A stretch of 64,000 nt of DNA. Source: Candidatus Kryptobacter tengchongensis (GTDB lineage Bacteria; Bacteroidota; Ignavibacteria; Kryptoniales; Kryptoniaceae). The stretch is from NCBI GenBank assembly GCA_001485605.1, contig FAON01000007.1, positions 124,001-188,000 on the forward strand, written 5' to 3'. The translations under genes and the position numbers were made by a program. How positions within the stretch are numbered: position 1 is the stretch's first letter; the number at the start of each line of letters is the position of its first letter. Below are positions 45,103 through 64,000 of this stretch, piece by piece. The notes beneath the pieces are model-generated. The model was not told the DNA's origin. It ran no database searches and worked only from the letters and a program-made list of their open reading frames with translations.

Positions 45103-45899
45103 TTTTTCCAACCCAATTTTGCGGTCAATGTTACCTGATGTGTTAAACCGAGCAATTGGTGGTTATTAACCCCGTAATCAAATTGAAATTTTGTAAATTT
45201 TATCCCAGCCCCACCAGAATATTGCGCAGGATAATTTGAAAACCCAAATCTTAAAGCGAAAAGATTTGCGAATTCATACTCAACCCCATATTTTAAACTT
45301 TCTTTAAAGCCAGTTTCTTTATAAATGCTTGTTGAAACCATTAAATTATCATAAGGCAACAAAGCAACCCCGAGTTCAATCTCCTTTGATAGTTTCTCTT
45401 TCGCTCTTCCAATTTTCCCAGCAATTAAATTTTTTAGAACGAAACCAAATTTAAAAAACTTAACAGATTTTGATATGAATCCAAGGTCAGCGCTGAACGC
45501 CCCAGCATTTCCATATCCCTTGATTGAGGCAAAATTATAGTTTAAGTTTAACCCAAGATTGAAAAGCTCAAAATCTCGGGCAACCGAAAATTTAACAACA
45601 CCTTCTTTGTAAAGTTCAAAACCAAAAATTTCAGCTCCAACACCGACCTTAACAGGTAAAGATGTTTCGCAAAATACAAAACCCTTCTTGGAAAGCTCTT
45701 TCAATCCAAATTGAGCGGGAATATATGAAAAAGAAATCTCCCTGATCTTCAAATCAGCCAATCCAGCAGGATTATAAAAAATTGCCCACACATCATTTGG
45801 GATAACATAACTTTTTAAGGCAAAAGCTCTTGCACCGAGATTTTCTTGTGGAAAAATCTTGGAAATAATCAGACAAAGAAAAATTAAAATTTTTAACAT
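45099..45899 (-). CDS. PorV/PorQ-like outer-membrane barrel protein, short
   Basis: 266 residues from ATG 45899, with a signal peptide (LKILIFLCLIISKIFPQ). The opening LGARAFALKSYVIPNDVWAIFYNPAGLADL is characteristic of PorV/PorQ-type barrels related to FadL, and the C-terminus ends in TAKLGWKK. The neighbouring HhH-barrel gene overlaps it by 4 bp, so the two proteins are likely made together. PorV in the type IX secretion system passes cargo to the sortase. Whether this copy does so is unknown. Confidence 0.8.
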   Translation of the reverse strand: MLKILIFLCLIISKIFPQENLGARAFALKSYVIPNDVWAIFYNPAGLADLKIREISFSYIPAQFGLKELSKKGFVFCETSLPVKVGVGAEIFGFELYKEGVVKFSVARDFELFNLGLNLNYNFASIKGYGNAGAFSADLGFISKSVKFFKFGFVLKNLIAGKIGRAKEKLSKEIELGVALLPYDNLMVSTSIYKETGFKESLKYGVEYEFANLFALRFGFSNYPAQYSGGAGIKFTKFQFDYGVNNHQLLGLTHQVTLTAKLGWKK

Positions 45900-57180: not shown

Positions 57181-57203
57181 AAAGGGCGGGCTAAAACCCG
57201 CCC
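57181..57203 (-). terminator. Intrinsic terminator after PorV
   Basis: Stem GGGCGGG / CCCGCCC (57184-57190 with 57197-57203), 6-nt loop, and a T-run on the minus strand. It lies 11 bp past the PorV stop. Confidence 0.92.
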
Positions 57204-57213
57204 CCTGCATTGT

Positions 57214-58230
57214 CTAAAATCCAACTTTCAAATTGAACACATGATTTGCACTAAAATATGTCACCGGGACATAAGCATAATCAAACGACACCTTTAATCC
57301 AATCAAACTTTCCGTATTAACCCCAGCGCCAAGTGTATAATGATGCCAAATTGAAGTTAATTCACCTGACTTGCTATAATTATAGCCCGCTCTGAGGAAG
57401 AAAATATTTTTAAATGAATACTCAAATCCGAACTTATAAGCATCTATAGCGTAAAAGTTATTTGCTTGATATAATCCAGTGAGAGATAAATTGTTAACTT
57501 CACCTATCGTATAATTGTATCCAAGTCCAATTTCAAATGAAGTTGGCATTGGGAATGAAGCCGCTTCAACTTTATAAAATGTGACTCCTCTTTCCGAGCC
57601 TGGAACCACTGCCCTAACCCACAATCCCGAACCACCATATTTCATCGTTGGTCCTATATTCTTAACAACAACACCAAGTGAAAGTCCAGAAATATTCAAC
57701 ATATTTCGGTATTGAATTCCAGCATCAAACGCAAAACCAGTTGCGCTAACCCTTCCAAAACTTTCATTTACAAGGTTGAAATTTACACCAACAGAAACAC
57801 GATCGGATAATCTTTTTGAGTAAGTCAAACTCGCAACAAAAAAGTTCGGGCTTATAACCTCACCTGTTCCGTCAGGTTGAAATTCAGTCGTAATAGGAAT
57901 ATCTCCAAAATCAAATGTTCTTAACGATAGACCAACCGAACCAAACCCAAATTTTCCGACCAAAGCAAGATAATTAATTCCGATATCTGCAATATAACGT
58001 CGGTGAGAAAACATCGCCTGACCATTTCCGACGATCCAATCAACCCCACCCGGATTCCAAGTTATTGCTTCAACACCTTCTGCAAGGACTCCAGATGCAC
58101 CAGCCATAGCTGTATATCTTGCTCCAACTGGAATAGTAAGCTCAGGCGCAGCGGATGTTCCAGCTTTTGATTGCGCAAATAACCACTGCCCCGAAATTAG
58201 CAAAACAATTATTAAATAAATCTTTCTCAT
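57214..58230 (-). CDS. PorV/PorQ-family outer-membrane barrel
   Basis: 338 residues with signal peptide (LIIVLLISGQWLFAQ). GARYTAMAGASGVLAEGVEAITWNPGGVDW (about 37-66) is the diagnostic opening, and the last residues FNLKVGF are typical of barrel proteins folded by BamA. In type IX secretion, PorV binds cargo at the cell surface for the sortase. Here it is the last of three same-strand genes with a TonB receptor and a large secreted protein that has a C-terminal sorting-like domain, which suggests a shared function. Confidence 0.9.
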   Translation of the reverse strand: MRKIYLIIVLLISGQWLFAQSKAGTSAAPELTIPVGARYTAMAGASGVLAEGVEAITWNPGGVDWIVGNGQAMFSHRRYIADIGINYLALVGKFGFGSVGLSLRTFDFGDIPITTEFQPDGTGEVISPNFFVASLTYSKRLSDRVSVGVNFNLVNESFGRVSATGFAFDAGIQYRNMLNISGLSLGVVVKNIGPTMKYGGSGLWVRAVVPGSERGVTFYKVEAASFPMPTSFEIGLGYNYTIGEVNNLSLTGLYQANNFYAIDAYKFGFEYSFKNIFFLRAGYNYSKSGELTSIWHHYTLGAGVNTESLIGLKVSFDYAYVPVTYFSANHVFNLKVGF

Positions 58231-58261
58231 GGTTCAAACTCCGTTTTTTTATTTTTAAATA

Positions 58262-58285
58262 ACCGCCCCTAACGAAAGGGGCGGT
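58262..58285 (-). terminator. Hairpin between secreted protein and PorV
   Basis: A 9-bp perfect stem ACCGCCCCT / AGGGGCGGT with a 6-nt loop starts 8 bp past the stop of the 1095-residue gene. The tract after it on the minus strand is A-rich rather than U-rich, so it may attenuate or stabilise the upstream message rather than end it. Confidence 0.6.
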
Positions 58286-58293
58286 GTTAAATT

Positions 58294-61200
58294 TTAATAA
58301 GTTGGAATTATCTCCTCTTCTTGAACGATCATGAGCTTTAAAATTTTCGTCTTTCCAATATCCGGCATGTCAATATGGACAATGTAAATACCACTTGCAA
58401 CAGGAAGATTGTGCTCATTTCTTAAATTCCACCTCGCAAATTGCGAATCATCATCTTTATAAATCGTCTTCACAAGAACACCAGCAAGGTTGAATATCCT
58501 TATCGTTGCTTTCTTCGGCAAATGGTTGAAAGTTATATACTTTAACAACCTATCGGTTTCCATTAAATTAAATCCATAATATGGGTTCGGAAAAGCGTTA
58601 ATTTTTTCAACATCTTGACGGGCAAGTTGAACATCACCAACTGTTGGAGCTTGTGTGACAAATACAAATGTATCAGCAGGCGTATTTACACGATTTGGAT
58701 AAAGTTTTAAAGTTACATCTGCACGGTAAGGCTCTTGAGTTCCCCTTTGATATAACCACAAAGCCCACAAAACTGGATAAGCGCTATGATTAGAACCGTT
58801 GGTCATAAATCCTCTTCCTTGTGTTGGATCCCATGCTTTTCCAGTAGGATCATAATCACTATCTAAAATCCATATATATTCATATGGCGTAATTGCATCA
58901 TTCGCATCTGAGATATCCCATTGTCTATTTGCATTTCTATCACGAACGACGACATTTAACTGCCGAGGTGAGTTCGGATTTTCAATATCAAAAACCTGGA
59001 AAGGAACATCAAAGAACCCTTCATATGCACCATTATTCCATGTTTGATACATAAATGCTTTTTGCGATTTTGCTGGATCAACTGTATAAGGTTCTCCAAG
59101 GTCATATTTCCCATTATTATTTGCATCTGTATATCCAGTTTTTGCAGAAAATCTAATTTCAACTGATTTAAAATCACCTGGTGCCAAGCTACTTCCAGTG
59201 AAGTTTGGACCCAAAAATACAGCACCAAATAACAGCTCACCACCATTTGCTGGATTTCCTGTGAACCATCTATTTGCAGATGGCTCTGCAACCCATTCTT
59301 TCCCAGCAAGAGGTGGACCCATTACTTTTACAAAAATACCATCAACTACCGGATAAGCTTCACCCCCAGATTGATTTGTCCCGGTTGCTTTTACCTTATT
59401 TTCATTAACATCAACGATATACCAATTCCCTTCATTATCAAATCTTACTTGATAAGTATGTCCTGTTGTGATAGATGGATCAACAAGTATGGCGACCACT
59501 TCGCCATCACTTTTACCCTTATGTATAACTTCTAAGGTATCGCCCACCACTCCAAAGTATCTTGACCCAGGCGGTGGAGATTGCGGGGTGGCTTTAAGGA
59601 CAATCGGGGTGCTTTCAAGGGCTCTAAATGGAGACAATGGATCTGGGTTGTATGCATAGGCAGTCACAGCATAGTAATAAGTTTGACCATTTACAAGCGG
59701 TCGCTGACGGATATAATCTGTGGTCAAAGCAAGAAAATGTCTTATCCCGCTATTGCTACCGGTTTGAACTGGGACTGATAAAAGAACTCCCGTTTTCGGG
59801 TCTATAGTTCTATCAAGTATGACAGTGACATCATTGATGACATCATATGTTGCTATCTTAACAGCCTCATTTAAACCTGCTGTTGCCGAAGGTAATTGAT
59901 AAACGTTGTATCCCTCAAAAATAAATCCAGCTGATTTAAAGTTCTCAATTGCATTAACACTTGCCTGATCCCATCCCCAGTTTAACACAATTTGACGATC
60001 TAATTCAGCAACCTTAACATTTGGCGCTGGAGGTGGAGATGGCAAGACAAATAAATTATCATAGGCAAATTGAGCATAGGTATCATAATACTTTAGAACC
60101 AAAACACTTGAAAGATTATCAGCACCCATTGCTCCTATTAAGGCAACAACTATTTCAGCTGTATCTCCAAGGCTTAATCTAAATGGACCTGTCACATTAA
60201 CAATTCTTCTATCACCTGGTGGAATTACCCTTCCATCAATCCAACCTGTCCCCGTCACAGGATCACCTGCTACAGCATATTTTGTTGGATAAGCGTTTGG
60301 ATCCTGCGCTGTAAAAGCTGACCAAAATGGGACAAAAGATGGATATTCAGGTCTTGGCAAACCTCCTCTCATTAAATTAAACCATTGATTAGCATTTGTA
60401 GGGTCACTTATACCGGTTCCAGCAGCAAAGAAAACAAATGTTGTAAGTGGATTTTCATTCCAATATTTATAACCTTTCCTCCACTCCAAGCCAATAACAG
60501 CAGAATCATTTGGATTCCCAGTATAATATGCCGGACCTTGAAGGAAATCAAAACCAACAGCTGGGGCAGGATAACCTATCGCTTGATATTCTGCATCAAC
60601 TGTATTTGCATTATACACATAACCAAGACCAAGCACAGAATCACATCCAGCTAAATCGTCGGAATATTCCCCAAGGTCAGGGTCTGACCACTTAACAACA
60701 TAAACACTATCAATAGTTGAATTTGGATCTGCTGTTGCGGTTCCCTTGTAAATTATCCTGAATTGCTGGAAAATAATATTGTTCAACGGATTTGAAACAG
60801 CATAACACCATTCTGTAACTTGAATTTCAAGTCCTATGGGAACTGAGCTAAACACGCTTTGACCTAAACTTGCGTCTAAATCATTACCAACAGTCCAAAC
60901 CGTCTGAGTAGCACCGGGGATACCGGGGACATGGTTGGGATTATTAGGATCAAATCCAGGTCCGTATTTTACTTTATATGCATCTGGTCCGGTGGTTGTA
61001 TACCATGGCGCACCTTTATCAGCAGGCCAATCTTTCCAATCATTTTCATACTGTTGACGAAGTGCATCTTCATCAGCTGGCGTTACATCTTTAAGTGGTT
61101 TCATAAAATATTCCGCAGCGTCAGCTTTTAAATCAGCAGTTTGATAATCAGGGCGAACTCGCCATACTCTTTTGACATCCGGAAGATTATAATCTTCAGC

Positions 61201-61581
61201 TTGCCCCTTCGTTACTATCCTCCCCGGTCTTATACTTGTCCTGTAAAAAATTCCTTGCGCCCTTAAAACTGGAGAAACCCCATCATTAACAAGACCACCT
61301 ATCATCAAACCTTCTCTATAAATCATCCCAACACCACTACCTCTGGGGAATGTCCCATTATAAGAGTTTCTAATTAGCGGTGGCCAACCTAATCCTCCAG
61401 GAGAACTTATAACCGATATCCAACTTGTTATGTTATTCGCGTCAATGACTGTTTGTGTAACTCCAGCTGCACCTGATTTAAAGAAAAATTCTTCACCTCT
61501 TTTCTTTAAAGGATCTTCTCTACCTACCACCAACCCAATGAAAGTTAGTATAAATATTGAAAGGATTAAAATTCTCCTCAT
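58294..61581 (-). CDS. Large secreted protein with FN3-like, calcium-loop and C-terminal sorting-type domains
   Basis: 1095 residues. A signal peptide (1-20) leads. The middle holds an FN3-like domain around 525-560 (VKVAELDRQIVLNWGW). Two dockerin/thrombospondin-like loops are visible, DANNNGKYDLGE and DRNANRQWDISDAND. The last 90 residues (FPNPYYGFN, ATIRIFNLAGVLVKTI, LPVASGIYIVHID, KTKILKLMIV) match the FlgD-Ig/type IX C-terminal sorting domain, here with an acidic tail EEEIIPTY instead of the usual short basic end. It lies 27 bp after the TonB receptor gene. No enzyme motif was recognised. Confidence 0.85.
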   Translation of the reverse strand: MRRILILSIFILTFIGLVVGREDPLKKRGEEFFFKSGAAGVTQTVIDANNITSWISVISSPGGLGWPPLIRNSYNGTFPRGSGVGMIYREGLMIGGLVNDGVSPVLRAQGIFYRTSIRPGRIVTKGQAEDYNLPDVKRVWRVRPDYQTADLKADAAEYFMKPLKDVTPADEDALRQQYENDWKDWPADKGAPWYTTTGPDAYKVKYGPGFDPNNPNHVPGIPGATQTVWTVGNDLDASLGQSVFSSVPIGLEIQVTEWCYAVSNPLNNIIFQQFRIIYKGTATADPNSTIDSVYVVKWSDPDLGEYSDDLAGCDSVLGLGYVYNANTVDAEYQAIGYPAPAVGFDFLQGPAYYTGNPNDSAVIGLEWRKGYKYWNENPLTTFVFFAAGTGISDPTNANQWFNLMRGGLPRPEYPSFVPFWSAFTAQDPNAYPTKYAVAGDPVTGTGWIDGRVIPPGDRRIVNVTGPFRLSLGDTAEIVVALIGAMGADNLSSVLVLKYYDTYAQFAYDNLFVLPSPPPAPNVKVAELDRQIVLNWGWDQASVNAIENFKSAGFIFEGYNVYQLPSATAGLNEAVKIATYDVINDVTVILDRTIDPKTGVLLSVPVQTGSNSGIRHFLALTTDYIRQRPLVNGQTYYYAVTAYAYNPDPLSPFRALESTPIVLKATPQSPPPGSRYFGVVGDTLEVIHKGKSDGEVVAILVDPSITTGHTYQVRFDNEGNWYIVDVNENKVKATGTNQSGGEAYPVVDGIFVKVMGPPLAGKEWVAEPSANRWFTGNPANGGELLFGAVFLGPNFTGSSLAPGDFKSVEIRFSAKTGYTDANNNGKYDLGEPYTVDPAKSQKAFMYQTWNNGAYEGFFDVPFQVFDIENPNSPRQLNVVVRDRNANRQWDISDANDAITPYEYIWILDSDYDPTGKAWDPTQGRGFMTNGSNHSAYPVLWALWLYQRGTQEPYRADVTLKLYPNRVNTPADTFVFVTQAPTVGDVQLARQDVEKINAFPNPYYGFNLMETDRLLKYITFNHLPKKATIRIFNLAGVLVKTIYKDDDSQFARWNLRNEHNLPVASGIYIVHIDMPDIGKTKILKLMIVQEEEIIPTY

Positions 61582-61608
61582 GGTTTTAAACCTCCAGATT
61601 TTATTTTT

Positions 61609-64000
61609 TTAAAATTCAATCTTCAATCCAGCTCTTAACTGTCTTGGTGGACCAAATAGATCCTGCAAAATTCCATTGAATCTCCATTGATGTTGACGAT
61701 TTTCAAGGTTGATCGCTCTATACAGTTGAATATATGTTTCGCCAAATTGTTGAACGAAACTTCCACTAAGATCTGGGTTTGTTAAGAAACCATCATCATA
61801 CGCATTTCCAGTTCTGTAATAAACATTTATCACATTCTTTGTGTTAAACAAATTCTGGACATAGACATAGAAATTGATATTAGCTGGACCAATTGAGATA
61901 GTTTTATCAACTCTCAAATCAACATTCCATACCCATGGCGTTCTTGACGCATTTATAGGTTCAAGCGGGTTTCTGTTCCTTGGATCTCCATCATTTAGGA
62001 TTCCGCCATCATCAGCGTCTTGCTGTGCTATACCACCTGTGGCAAGTGTATACGGATGCCCACTGTTAAATGTTATAAGTAAGTTAACACCAAACCTTTC
62101 AAGCAGCGGACCACCTTCACCTTTACCAAAGCGATAATCAATGTTTATGCTTCCCCTATGTGTCTGATTATAAGTTAACGGAACAGTTAATGTAGGTGTA
62201 ATTTGAGTAATCCCAACCGCTGCCCACGCACCGTTTGCAAAAGAATTTGTTCCGCGCGCATCTTGCAATGTATAACTTACTTGCGCCTGAACTCTGTAGA
62301 CACGACGAATCCTTAATGTAAATTCAAGCCCATAAACATTTTCAAAATCCCCATTTGCATAAACAGCATATTTTGTCCCAGCAAATGTTCCAGAAGTAAT
62401 AGGCACAGTTGAAACCTGAAGCTGATTCCTAACATCTTTATAGAATCCAGTTATATCAAAAGCTGCGAAATCAGTAAACTGTTGTGAAAAACCAATCTCA
62501 TACTGAGTTGTTTTAACTGGATCAGGGTCAAAAGCAAGGGGATCAGGTATCAATTCAATTGATGGAAGATATACGCTCCCGGGATAATATGATAACCCAG
62601 CATAAAGCGAAGTCAGAGCCGGTGCCTGAACGAAAACACCATACTGGAGATGGAATACAGTTCTATCCGTAACAGGGAACGAAAATCCTAACCTCGGCTG
62701 AAGGTAAGCTCTGGGTTTACCTTTCTCAAGCCCAAGCAACTTTCTGTTAAACAAGTCAACCTCTGGAGCCGATGGGTTCTTAAATTTCCAAGCATCAAAA
62801 TACATATAATCATAACGAAGCCCGGCGTTTATAATTAAATCGCTGAATTCAATCCTATCTTGAATATAAGCAGAGAAAAAGTATGGATGCCTTGGTCCAT
62901 CTTCACCTGAATCAACCTTCCTTCCAAATCTATCAAAACCATAGTTATTAACATAGCTTCCAAGCAACCTATAAAGATAATTTTCATTCCTTGCGGAATC
63001 TGGCAAAGAATGGAATGCTCTAAACAAACCACCTGTCCCAAGTCCATAGTGGCGTACTGTCCATCTTTGATAACTTGTTCCAATTTTGAACTCGTGGTTT
63101 TTAACCTGCGATGTCAAAGCGATACTTCCGCCATAATAACCCTGCTGAAACTTGCTATATCCAGCAAACAAAGTTCCAGGTCTATAAAACGCAAATCCAT
63201 AAAAATCATATGGAGGTGGACCAACATACCTGCTGACATATTTGAAACGCTCACCATATGCACGCACAACCTGTAAACTATCATCATAAGCAAGGACATT
63301 ATCACCAAAGGCTGGTTCATAGGATTTATTTCGGTAATCAAGGAAACTCACAGATGCCTCTAAAAATGTCTTTGAAGATATGAAATAGCTCGCCTTAATA
63401 TCAAAGAAAAATTCGGTATTATCCGTTACTGGCAATCTCTCAAGATTGAAAATATTTCTCAACGAGTTATTTGCCCTCTCCCTTGACCAAGTGTACGCAC
63501 CCGCAACTCTTATTTGAAGCGGTTTGAAATCAAAAGTCAAAGTTCCATTCCCGGTGTATCTATTTACCATTCTACCTGGTATATTTGCATCATTCCAAGC
63601 TACAAGAGCCGAATCACCCTTTGTCCCACCTCTTCGTCCATTGTCTTTCATATATCCAAAATTATAACCCTTGAAGAAATGTGGTATATAATCCCTTACA
63701 AAGTTATTTTCTCCAGCCAGGAAAAACTTAACTCTTTCAGTTAGAAGTGGACCACCCAAAGTTAAAACAACATCTGAATAACCGTAAGAATATGTCCCAA
63801 GGAATTTCTTACCAGGATAATTTCCAAAATTATCTGTTTCAAATTGAGCCGATGCGGAAAACCTTGGTTTACCTGTTTTGAAAACTTGCTGAACGATTCC
63901 AGCGTTTGCATTACCAAATTCAGCATTGTAACCACCTGCTTGAACCGAGATTTCCTCAAGAGCCTCCGGGATTGTCGTCACCAAGCCACCGCCCAACGCT
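61609..64000 (-). CDS. TonB-dependent outer-membrane receptor (5' partial)
   Basis: The frame continues past the right edge; 796 residues are visible. The visible start (LGGGLVTTIPEALEEISVQAGGYNAEFGNANAGIV) is the plug domain end with its conserved AEFGNA motif. The rest is a 22-strand-type beta-barrel ending LRAGLKIEF with a terminal Phe. The missing N-terminus would hold a carboxypeptidase-like domain, the TonB box and the first part of the plug. It leads the trio with the secreted protein and PorV. The imported substrate is unknown. Confidence 0.93.
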   Translation of the reverse strand, partial: ALGGGLVTTIPEALEEISVQAGGYNAEFGNANAGIVQQVFKTGKPRFSASAQFETDNFGNYPGKKFLGTYSYGYSDVVLTLGGPLLTERVKFFLAGENNFVRDYIPHFFKGYNFGYMKDNGRRGGTKGDSALVAWNDANIPGRMVNRYTGNGTLTFDFKPLQIRVAGAYTWSRERANNSLRNIFNLERLPVTDNTEFFFDIKASYFISSKTFLEASVSFLDYRNKSYEPAFGDNVLAYDDSLQVVRAYGERFKYVSRYVGPPPYDFYGFAFYRPGTLFAGYSKFQQGYYGGSIALTSQVKNHEFKIGTSYQRWTVRHYGLGTGGLFRAFHSLPDSARNENYLYRLLGSYVNNYGFDRFGRKVDSGEDGPRHPYFFSAYIQDRIEFSDLIINAGLRYDYMYFDAWKFKNPSAPEVDLFNRKLLGLEKGKPRAYLQPRLGFSFPVTDRTVFHLQYGVFVQAPALTSLYAGLSYYPGSVYLPSIELIPDPLAFDPDPVKTTQYEIGFSQQFTDFAAFDITGFYKDVRNQLQVSTVPITSGTFAGTKYAVYANGDFENVYGLEFTLRIRRVYRVQAQVSYTLQDARGTNSFANGAWAAVGITQITPTLTVPLTYNQTHRGSINIDYRFGKGEGGPLLERFGVNLLITFNSGHPYTLATGGIAQQDADDGGILNDGDPRNRNPLEPINASRTPWVWNVDLRVDKTISIGPANINFYVYVQNLFNTKNVINVYYRTGNAYDDGFLTNPDLSGSFVQQFGETYIQLYRAINLENRQHQWRFNGILQDLFGPPRQLRAGLKIEF

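Follow-up and report, generated by a model that had tools for sequence, protein, structure and literature searches.

Cargo of the type 9 secretion system (T9SS) that carries a type B C-terminal sorting domain (CTD) requires a cognate PorP/SprF barrel, the product of the adjacent gene, and remains with it, the barrel acting as both shuttle and anchor (PMC12618676, PMC9143113). All type A cargo of F. johnsoniae uses a single PorV (PMC12618676). The CTD of PorZ is retained uncleaved on PorQ, and that of PorU on PorV, and a review has advanced the hypothesis that cognate PorV-like barrels shield CTDs from cleavage (PMC10202324).

The three-gene locus (trio) analysed here, encoding a TonB-dependent receptor, a large secreted protein (SEC) and a PorV-family barrel, shares features with several described systems. 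As in SusC/SusD (RagA/RagB), a TonB receptor with an N-terminal CarbopepD_reg_2 domain is followed by the gene of its surface partner, there are many copies per genome, and regulators, glycosidases and transporters occur at sister loci. However, the receptor falls below the SusC/RagA cut-off (71 vs 368 bits), the partner is not SusD in sequence or modelled fold, is not a lipoprotein and bears a T9SS sorting domain, and the PorV-family barrel is an additional component. In common with the type B CTD/PorP-SprF pairs (SprB/SprF, PG1035/PorP), a secreted T9SS protein precedes its own 14-stranded barrel, but here the barrel belongs to the PorV family, the CTD is of type A or resembles that of PorZ, and the operon is headed by a TonB receptor. 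The combination of a PorZ-like CTD and a PorV/PorQ-family barrel recalls PorZ/PorQ of the T9SS attachment complex. That pair, however, is a component of the machine and has no TonB receptor, whereas the trio is multi-copy and PorQ is present separately in the source genome.

The same gene order appears in the figure-legend gene list of an alginate locus of Rhodothermus marinus, namely tonB, hypA (a T9SS type A protein) and hypB (PorV/PorQ family), accompanied by three alginate lyases (PMC9530828). The hypA gene (2,181 nt, shorter than the SEC gene studied here) is likened to the latter by its description only, and the passages found in that paper do not treat the three genes as an uptake system. 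A literature search mostly confined to openly available journal papers found no paper describing the trio as a system. Since the component families are known and the order is visible in at least one published locus, the trio is regarded as a variant rather than as a new kind of system.

The trio operon and its products

The window analysed is a stretch of 64,000 nucleotides (G000:C7:124001-188000), whose edge falls within a minus-strand operon. The source genome is that of a Kryptonia relative; among named genomes, the closest are Candidatus Kryptonium, Thermokryptus, Chrysopegis and a further Kryptonia bin, whose secreted proteins share 73-86% identity with the window SEC. An earlier note on this DNA had described three adjacent same-strand genes for a TonB receptor, a secreted protein and a PorV-family barrel, and the open reading frames on the minus strand, together with their profile matches, agree with this description (Table 1). 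The receptor gene is transcribed first and is followed after 27 bp by the gene of the 1095-aa secreted protein and after a further 63 bp by that of the barrel.

Table 1. Positions of the trio genes and associated elements in the window
Feature	Position	Strand	Size or basis
TonB-dependent receptor	61609..64000, continuing 614 bases past the window edge	-	complete 1001 aa
Secreted protein (SEC), signal peptide, no lipobox	58294..61581	-	1095 aa; ORF and profile searches
SEC C-terminal sorting domain, type A / PorZ-like	58321..58593 (residues about 997-1087)	-	TIGR04183, PorZ C-terminus, trio-CTD profile
GC-rich hairpin, SEC stop to PorV start	58262..58285	-	9-pair stem
PorV/PorQ-family 14-stranded outer-membrane barrel, trio paralogue	57214..58230	-	338 aa; NF033709
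Terminator-like hairpin directly 3' of the PorV gene	57181..57206	-	11-pair stem, strongest of the region; consensus match only

The complete receptor corresponds to L039:10609-13614 and extends to the equivalent of window position 64614. Upstream of it, just beyond the window, lies a gene for a DUF4397 lipoprotein of 222 aa (L039:13629-14297), which is probably a further, first gene of the operon; it is preceded by the region's best candidate promoter (TTGACA-17-TATATT, a consensus match only). A homologue of this lipoprotein precedes the receptor in the orthologues L052, L054 and L055, in L071 from another family and, weakly, in L074. No RNA families were found in the region at the gathering score.

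The GC-rich hairpin between the SEC and PorV genes was present in all nine loci folded (the window, L041, L052, L053, L054, L055, L060, L061 and L071), with stem sequences that vary between loci; the gaps of several other trios are too short for a hairpin. This element may set the ratio of PorV to cargo. Elsewhere in the window, a weak PorV-family profile match (32 bits) was seen in a 301-aa open frame at positions 45117-45599.

The complete receptor matches CarbopepD_reg_2 (78.9 bits) and CarboxypepD_reg, both over their cut-offs, and the Plug domain PF07715 with 28.8 bits against a cut-off of 23.9, which identifies it as a TonB-dependent receptor in the general sense. Its score with the SusC/RagA model TIGR04056 is far too low for membership (71.3 bits, cut-off 368.25), the alignment being limited to residues 27-148. 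Among ten aligned trio receptors the plug was matched in nine and the barrel family in eight, and in every complete trio seen the receptor comes first in the operon and retains its plug. The genome contains four TonB_C genes.

The sorting-type C-terminus reported for the secreted protein was confirmed, as SEC just passes the type A sorting profile TIGR04183 (23.8 bits, cut-off 23) and so qualifies, marginally, as a protein with a T9SS type A CTD. The better match is to the PorZ C-terminus (39.9 bits), and among ten SEC proteins TIGR04183 was matched at E 0.01 by three and the PorZ profile by eight. A profile built from ten trio CTDs, which favours its own members, gave 60-152 bits for trio CTDs and at most 41 bits for other CTDs in the same loci. 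The window-type CTD is about 8 residues (EEEIIPTY) longer than the usual end (window 58294-58320), as is that of the paralogue L041.

Besides the CTD, no Pfam domain was detected in the window SEC or in a Pfam scan of ten SEC proteins, and comparison with PDB sequences revealed no known domain; judged by its sequence, SEC is a protein family of its own. The characterisation of this partner as a giant FN3-type protein did not hold, since Pfam found no FN3 domain in the window SEC and the only hints of one are an FN3-like YYYAV stretch at residues ~520-660 and a weak structural similarity to FN3 arrays in Foldseek. The AlphaFold model of SEC, of modest confidence (pLDDT 70.8), is beta-rich, with a well-modelled CTD and acidic loops, and no recognisable binding domain was seen in it. 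With very low TM-scores throughout, its listed Foldseek matches comprise generic beta-sandwiches, FN3 arrays and PorZ. SusD was matched neither in the Pfam scan of ten SEC proteins nor among the 50 Foldseek matches listed for this modest-confidence model; no lipobox is present in the window SEC, and a lipobox-like motif occurs in two of 75 SEC proteins. A distant SusD is ruled out as the identity of SEC by sequence and lipobox and, less firmly, by the model.

At one locus of the source genome (L043, G000:C8), two secreted proteins, L043:3496-6999 and L043:9741-13343, are encoded on either side of one receptor. Their N-terminal ~350-400 residues differ and the remainder is identical, the DNA being identical over at least the last 1500 bases. 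The pair may have arisen by recent duplication or gene conversion, or may be an assembly repeat; it would provide a variable N-terminal part served by a single receptor and a single PorV.

The window barrel matches Pfam PorV (29.6 bits, cut-off 27) and the NCBIfam PorV/PorQ family NF033709 (172.8 bits, cut-off 90) and is modelled with 14 strands, consistent with its assignment to the PorV/PorQ family. Its best Foldseek matches are the solved PorV structures 8gl6_F and 6h3i_F, with FadL and TodX ranking after them, and it is closest to F. johnsoniae PorV in sequence as in fold (E 2.9e-35 vs 1.2e-05 for TodX). It is not a core PorV by the model NF033710 (80.3 bits, cut-off 250), and a true core PorV (260.9 bits, over the cut-off) adjoins PorU at C4. 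Core PorU, PorV, PorQ and SprA each score over cut-off in the genome, which has one SprA, at C10, and 63 type A-type CTD matches. On the PorV tree, the core PorVs group together with 100/100 support, and the trio PorVs fall outside this clade. The tree did not resolve a single clade of all trio PorVs, and several trio types group orthologues of more than one family, such as the window type L039 with L052 and L071. The profile scores, the separate PorV beside PorU and the tree rule out that the trio PorV is the core T9SS PorV, and place the trio PorVs as paralogues distinct from the single core one. At L050:1784-7640 (G000:C14), a second PorU-like protein, of 1608 aa, and after it a PorV-like one are encoded; both score below the PorU, PorU2 and PorV2 cut-offs.

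Recurrence, co-divergence and gene neighbourhood

A search for repeats of the trio, as suggested in the earlier note, refuted the possibility that it is found only once. The source genome harbours eight complete trios, at C7, C16 (two), C14, C8 (two), C13 and C12, and one variant at C10, and the trio also recurs in relatives and across the phylum. Of the 16 PorV-family genes counted in the genome, nine have a TonB plug 2-9 kb upstream on the same strand. Random placement predicts 0.4, with a maximum of 4 in 2000 draws, and so rules out chance linkage of receptor and PorV. Such linkages are present in five of six other genomes checked, at 1 to 8 per genome (G001 7, G008 8, G020 4, G026 5, G025 1, G028 0).

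The secreted protein family, searched for with a profile of the protein minus its CTD, was found in 145 of 296 phylum genomes and 98 of 140 genera. A six-frame search of 20 loci, with 19 family groups new to the sampling, recovered the order receptor, secreted protein, PorV on one strand in all 20; as these loci were chosen from good matches to a profile of trio proteins, this shows the breadth of the arrangement and not its share of all copies. In the C10 variant (L047), PorV follows immediately after the receptor, and the gene of the secreted CTD protein is separate and upstream. Because no secreted gene lies between receptor and PorV in this variant (C10, with counterparts L056, L064 and L072 in three other genomes), strict three-gene adjacency is not required. 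A protein of 359-382 aa is encoded next after PorV in L047, L056, L064 and L072, and L047, L056 and L064 share the separate, upstream location of the secreted CTD protein.

The three trio genes co-diverge. When pairwise distances are compared between receptor, secreted body, CTD and PorV, the correlation across 32 trios is r 0.81-0.89 (Mantel test, uncorrected for kinship), and across the eight trios of the source genome r 0.63-0.86, a level reached in no more than 12 of 5000 permutations. The latter comparison is free of species history, because all of its trios come from one genome.

No catabolic or sugar-use neighbours were found among the ORFs neighbouring the window copy, which is therefore not classed as a polysaccharide utilisation locus; this designation does apply to C8, C12 and C14 of the source genome and to many of the sampled loci. 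The C14 sister locus includes a LacI regulator and a CBM20 protein, the C8 loci LacI with a sugar ABC transporter and, as a separate set, GH3, a BadF-type kinase and an SSF symporter, the C12 locus GH38 and IclR, and the C16 locus an M14 carboxypeptidase. Sugar-binding ABC proteins, MalK, GH2, GH3, glucoamylase, LacI, CBM4_9, CBM9 and CBM20/48 were encountered at loci of other families. The neighbours to be scanned were selected by hand, so that this survey is not an enrichment test.

SusD-rich genomes make up 7 of the 111 with a strong SEC match and 80 of the 185 others (Fisher p 7e-13, uncorrected for kinship), the SusD numbers being scored per genome as minimum values. Simple absence of SusD from SEC genomes is ruled out, since at least one SusD is present in 59 of the 111. 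The source genome has two SusD matches only, in tandem at L085 (G000:C4:99001-118000) with TonB receptors of another kind, and therefore both uptake plans coexist in one cell.

A proposed SusCD-like importer and alternative readings

The reading considered most probable, held with moderate confidence, is that the trio is a SusCD-like importer whose surface receptor protein, exported by the T9SS and held by a PorV-type barrel of its own, would take over the part of the SusD lipoprotein; the complex, its anchoring and its substrate are putative. The three genes would be co-expressed, here with the DUF4397 lipoprotein gene in front, and the 1095-aa protein would pass through Sec and next through the shared SprA/Sov channel. 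Its PorZ-like CTD would be taken by the neighbouring PorV-type barrel, rather than being collected by the core PorV or cut by PorU, and, left uncleaved on this barrel, would serve as a membrane anchor, like PorZ on PorQ and type B proteins on SprF/PorP. The anchored protein may then lie beside or over the TonB receptor, where it would capture a substrate or cover the channel, and the ligand would be imported by the receptor with TonB energy.

The anchoring step is reasonable because of the published precedents, namely type B cargo with PorP/SprF, PorZ on PorQ, PorU on PorV and the hypothesis of CTD protection, and the resemblance of the trio CTDs to that of PorZ likewise suggests anchoring. 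Capture and import fit the catabolic neighbours at many sister loci and, as far as its gene list describes it, the R. marinus locus (PMC9530828); for the window copy, uptake and a substrate are presumed. The earlier note had envisaged a self-contained capture, secretion and import machine. Recurrence and the catabolic neighbours at many sister loci favour such a machine, but it is not self-contained, because export requires the shared T9SS channel (SprA at C10, PorU and core PorV at C4) and import requires TonB. The PorV shuttle said to be supplied in the locus is indeed a PorV/PorQ-family barrel, but calling it a mere shuttle probably understates its role; a dedicated anchor fits, since the genome has a core PorV besides, and the trio paralogue has diverged together with the gene next to it.

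Dedicated secretion without a joint complex is an unlikely alternative, though the best of those considered. The PorV paralogue would only carry its neighbour out of SprA, PorU would cut it, and SEC would then either be released or be attached to LPS and would act by itself, as an enzyme or a binding protein, with the TonB receptor importing products independently. This would agree with the role of PorV as a shuttle in known T9SS, where all F. johnsoniae type A cargo travels on one PorV (PMC12618676), and with the presence of PorU and PorQ in the source genome, and the SEC CTD does pass, if barely, the type A profile. However, a core PorV is already there for generic cargo, with its 63 type A-type CTD matches, so that a private shuttle per copy would be unneeded for mere release; moreover, receptor, cargo and PorV co-diverge, and the SEC CTD is nearer to that of PorZ, which is retained.

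Surface display or adhesion is distinctly improbable. Under this reading, PorV would hold an FN3-like SEC that serves as an adhesin or as part of a surface layer, the receptor would be a sensor or co-opted, and import would not be the main function. Such a role could apply to the window-type copy in particular, which has a DUF4397 lipoprotein instead of catabolic neighbours, and the large, beta-rich SEC with its acidic loops would be compatible with it. Against this, every complete trio seen begins with a receptor that has kept its plug, the sister loci are plainly catabolic, and the listed genes of the R. marinus alginate locus stand in the same order. Hardly credible is a FadL-like importer of hydrophobic or aromatic compounds beside the TonB receptor, with no T9SS part and SEC as a shared binding protein: PorV and FadL have a common fold, and FadL and TodX come behind PorV in the Foldseek ranking, but the barrel is closest to PorV in sequence and fold (E 2.9e-35 vs 1.2e-05 for TodX), comes after T9SS cargo genes in fixed order, and has sugar genes as neighbours at sister loci.

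Returning to the SusCD-like importer, it is suggested more tentatively that trios may constitute a separate importer class found throughout the phylum, in which an uncleaved T9SS-exported protein on a dedicated PorV barrel replaces SusD, and which prevails in SusCD-poor lineages. If this is true, SusCD-type TonB import and type 9 secretion, two hallmarks of Bacteroidota, would be joined as one import unit in many deep lineages, and about half of the sampled phylum genomes, those holding the secreted family, would be concerned. Many proteins annotated as hypothetical, T9SS-sorted or PorV/PorQ family would acquire a function, and the 15-20 PorV-like genes of some genomes a reason. The principle of cognate cargo and barrel would no longer be confined to type B but would take in sorting domains that are type A or PorZ-like, and the trio would represent a route by which SusD-poor bacteria may take up polysaccharides.
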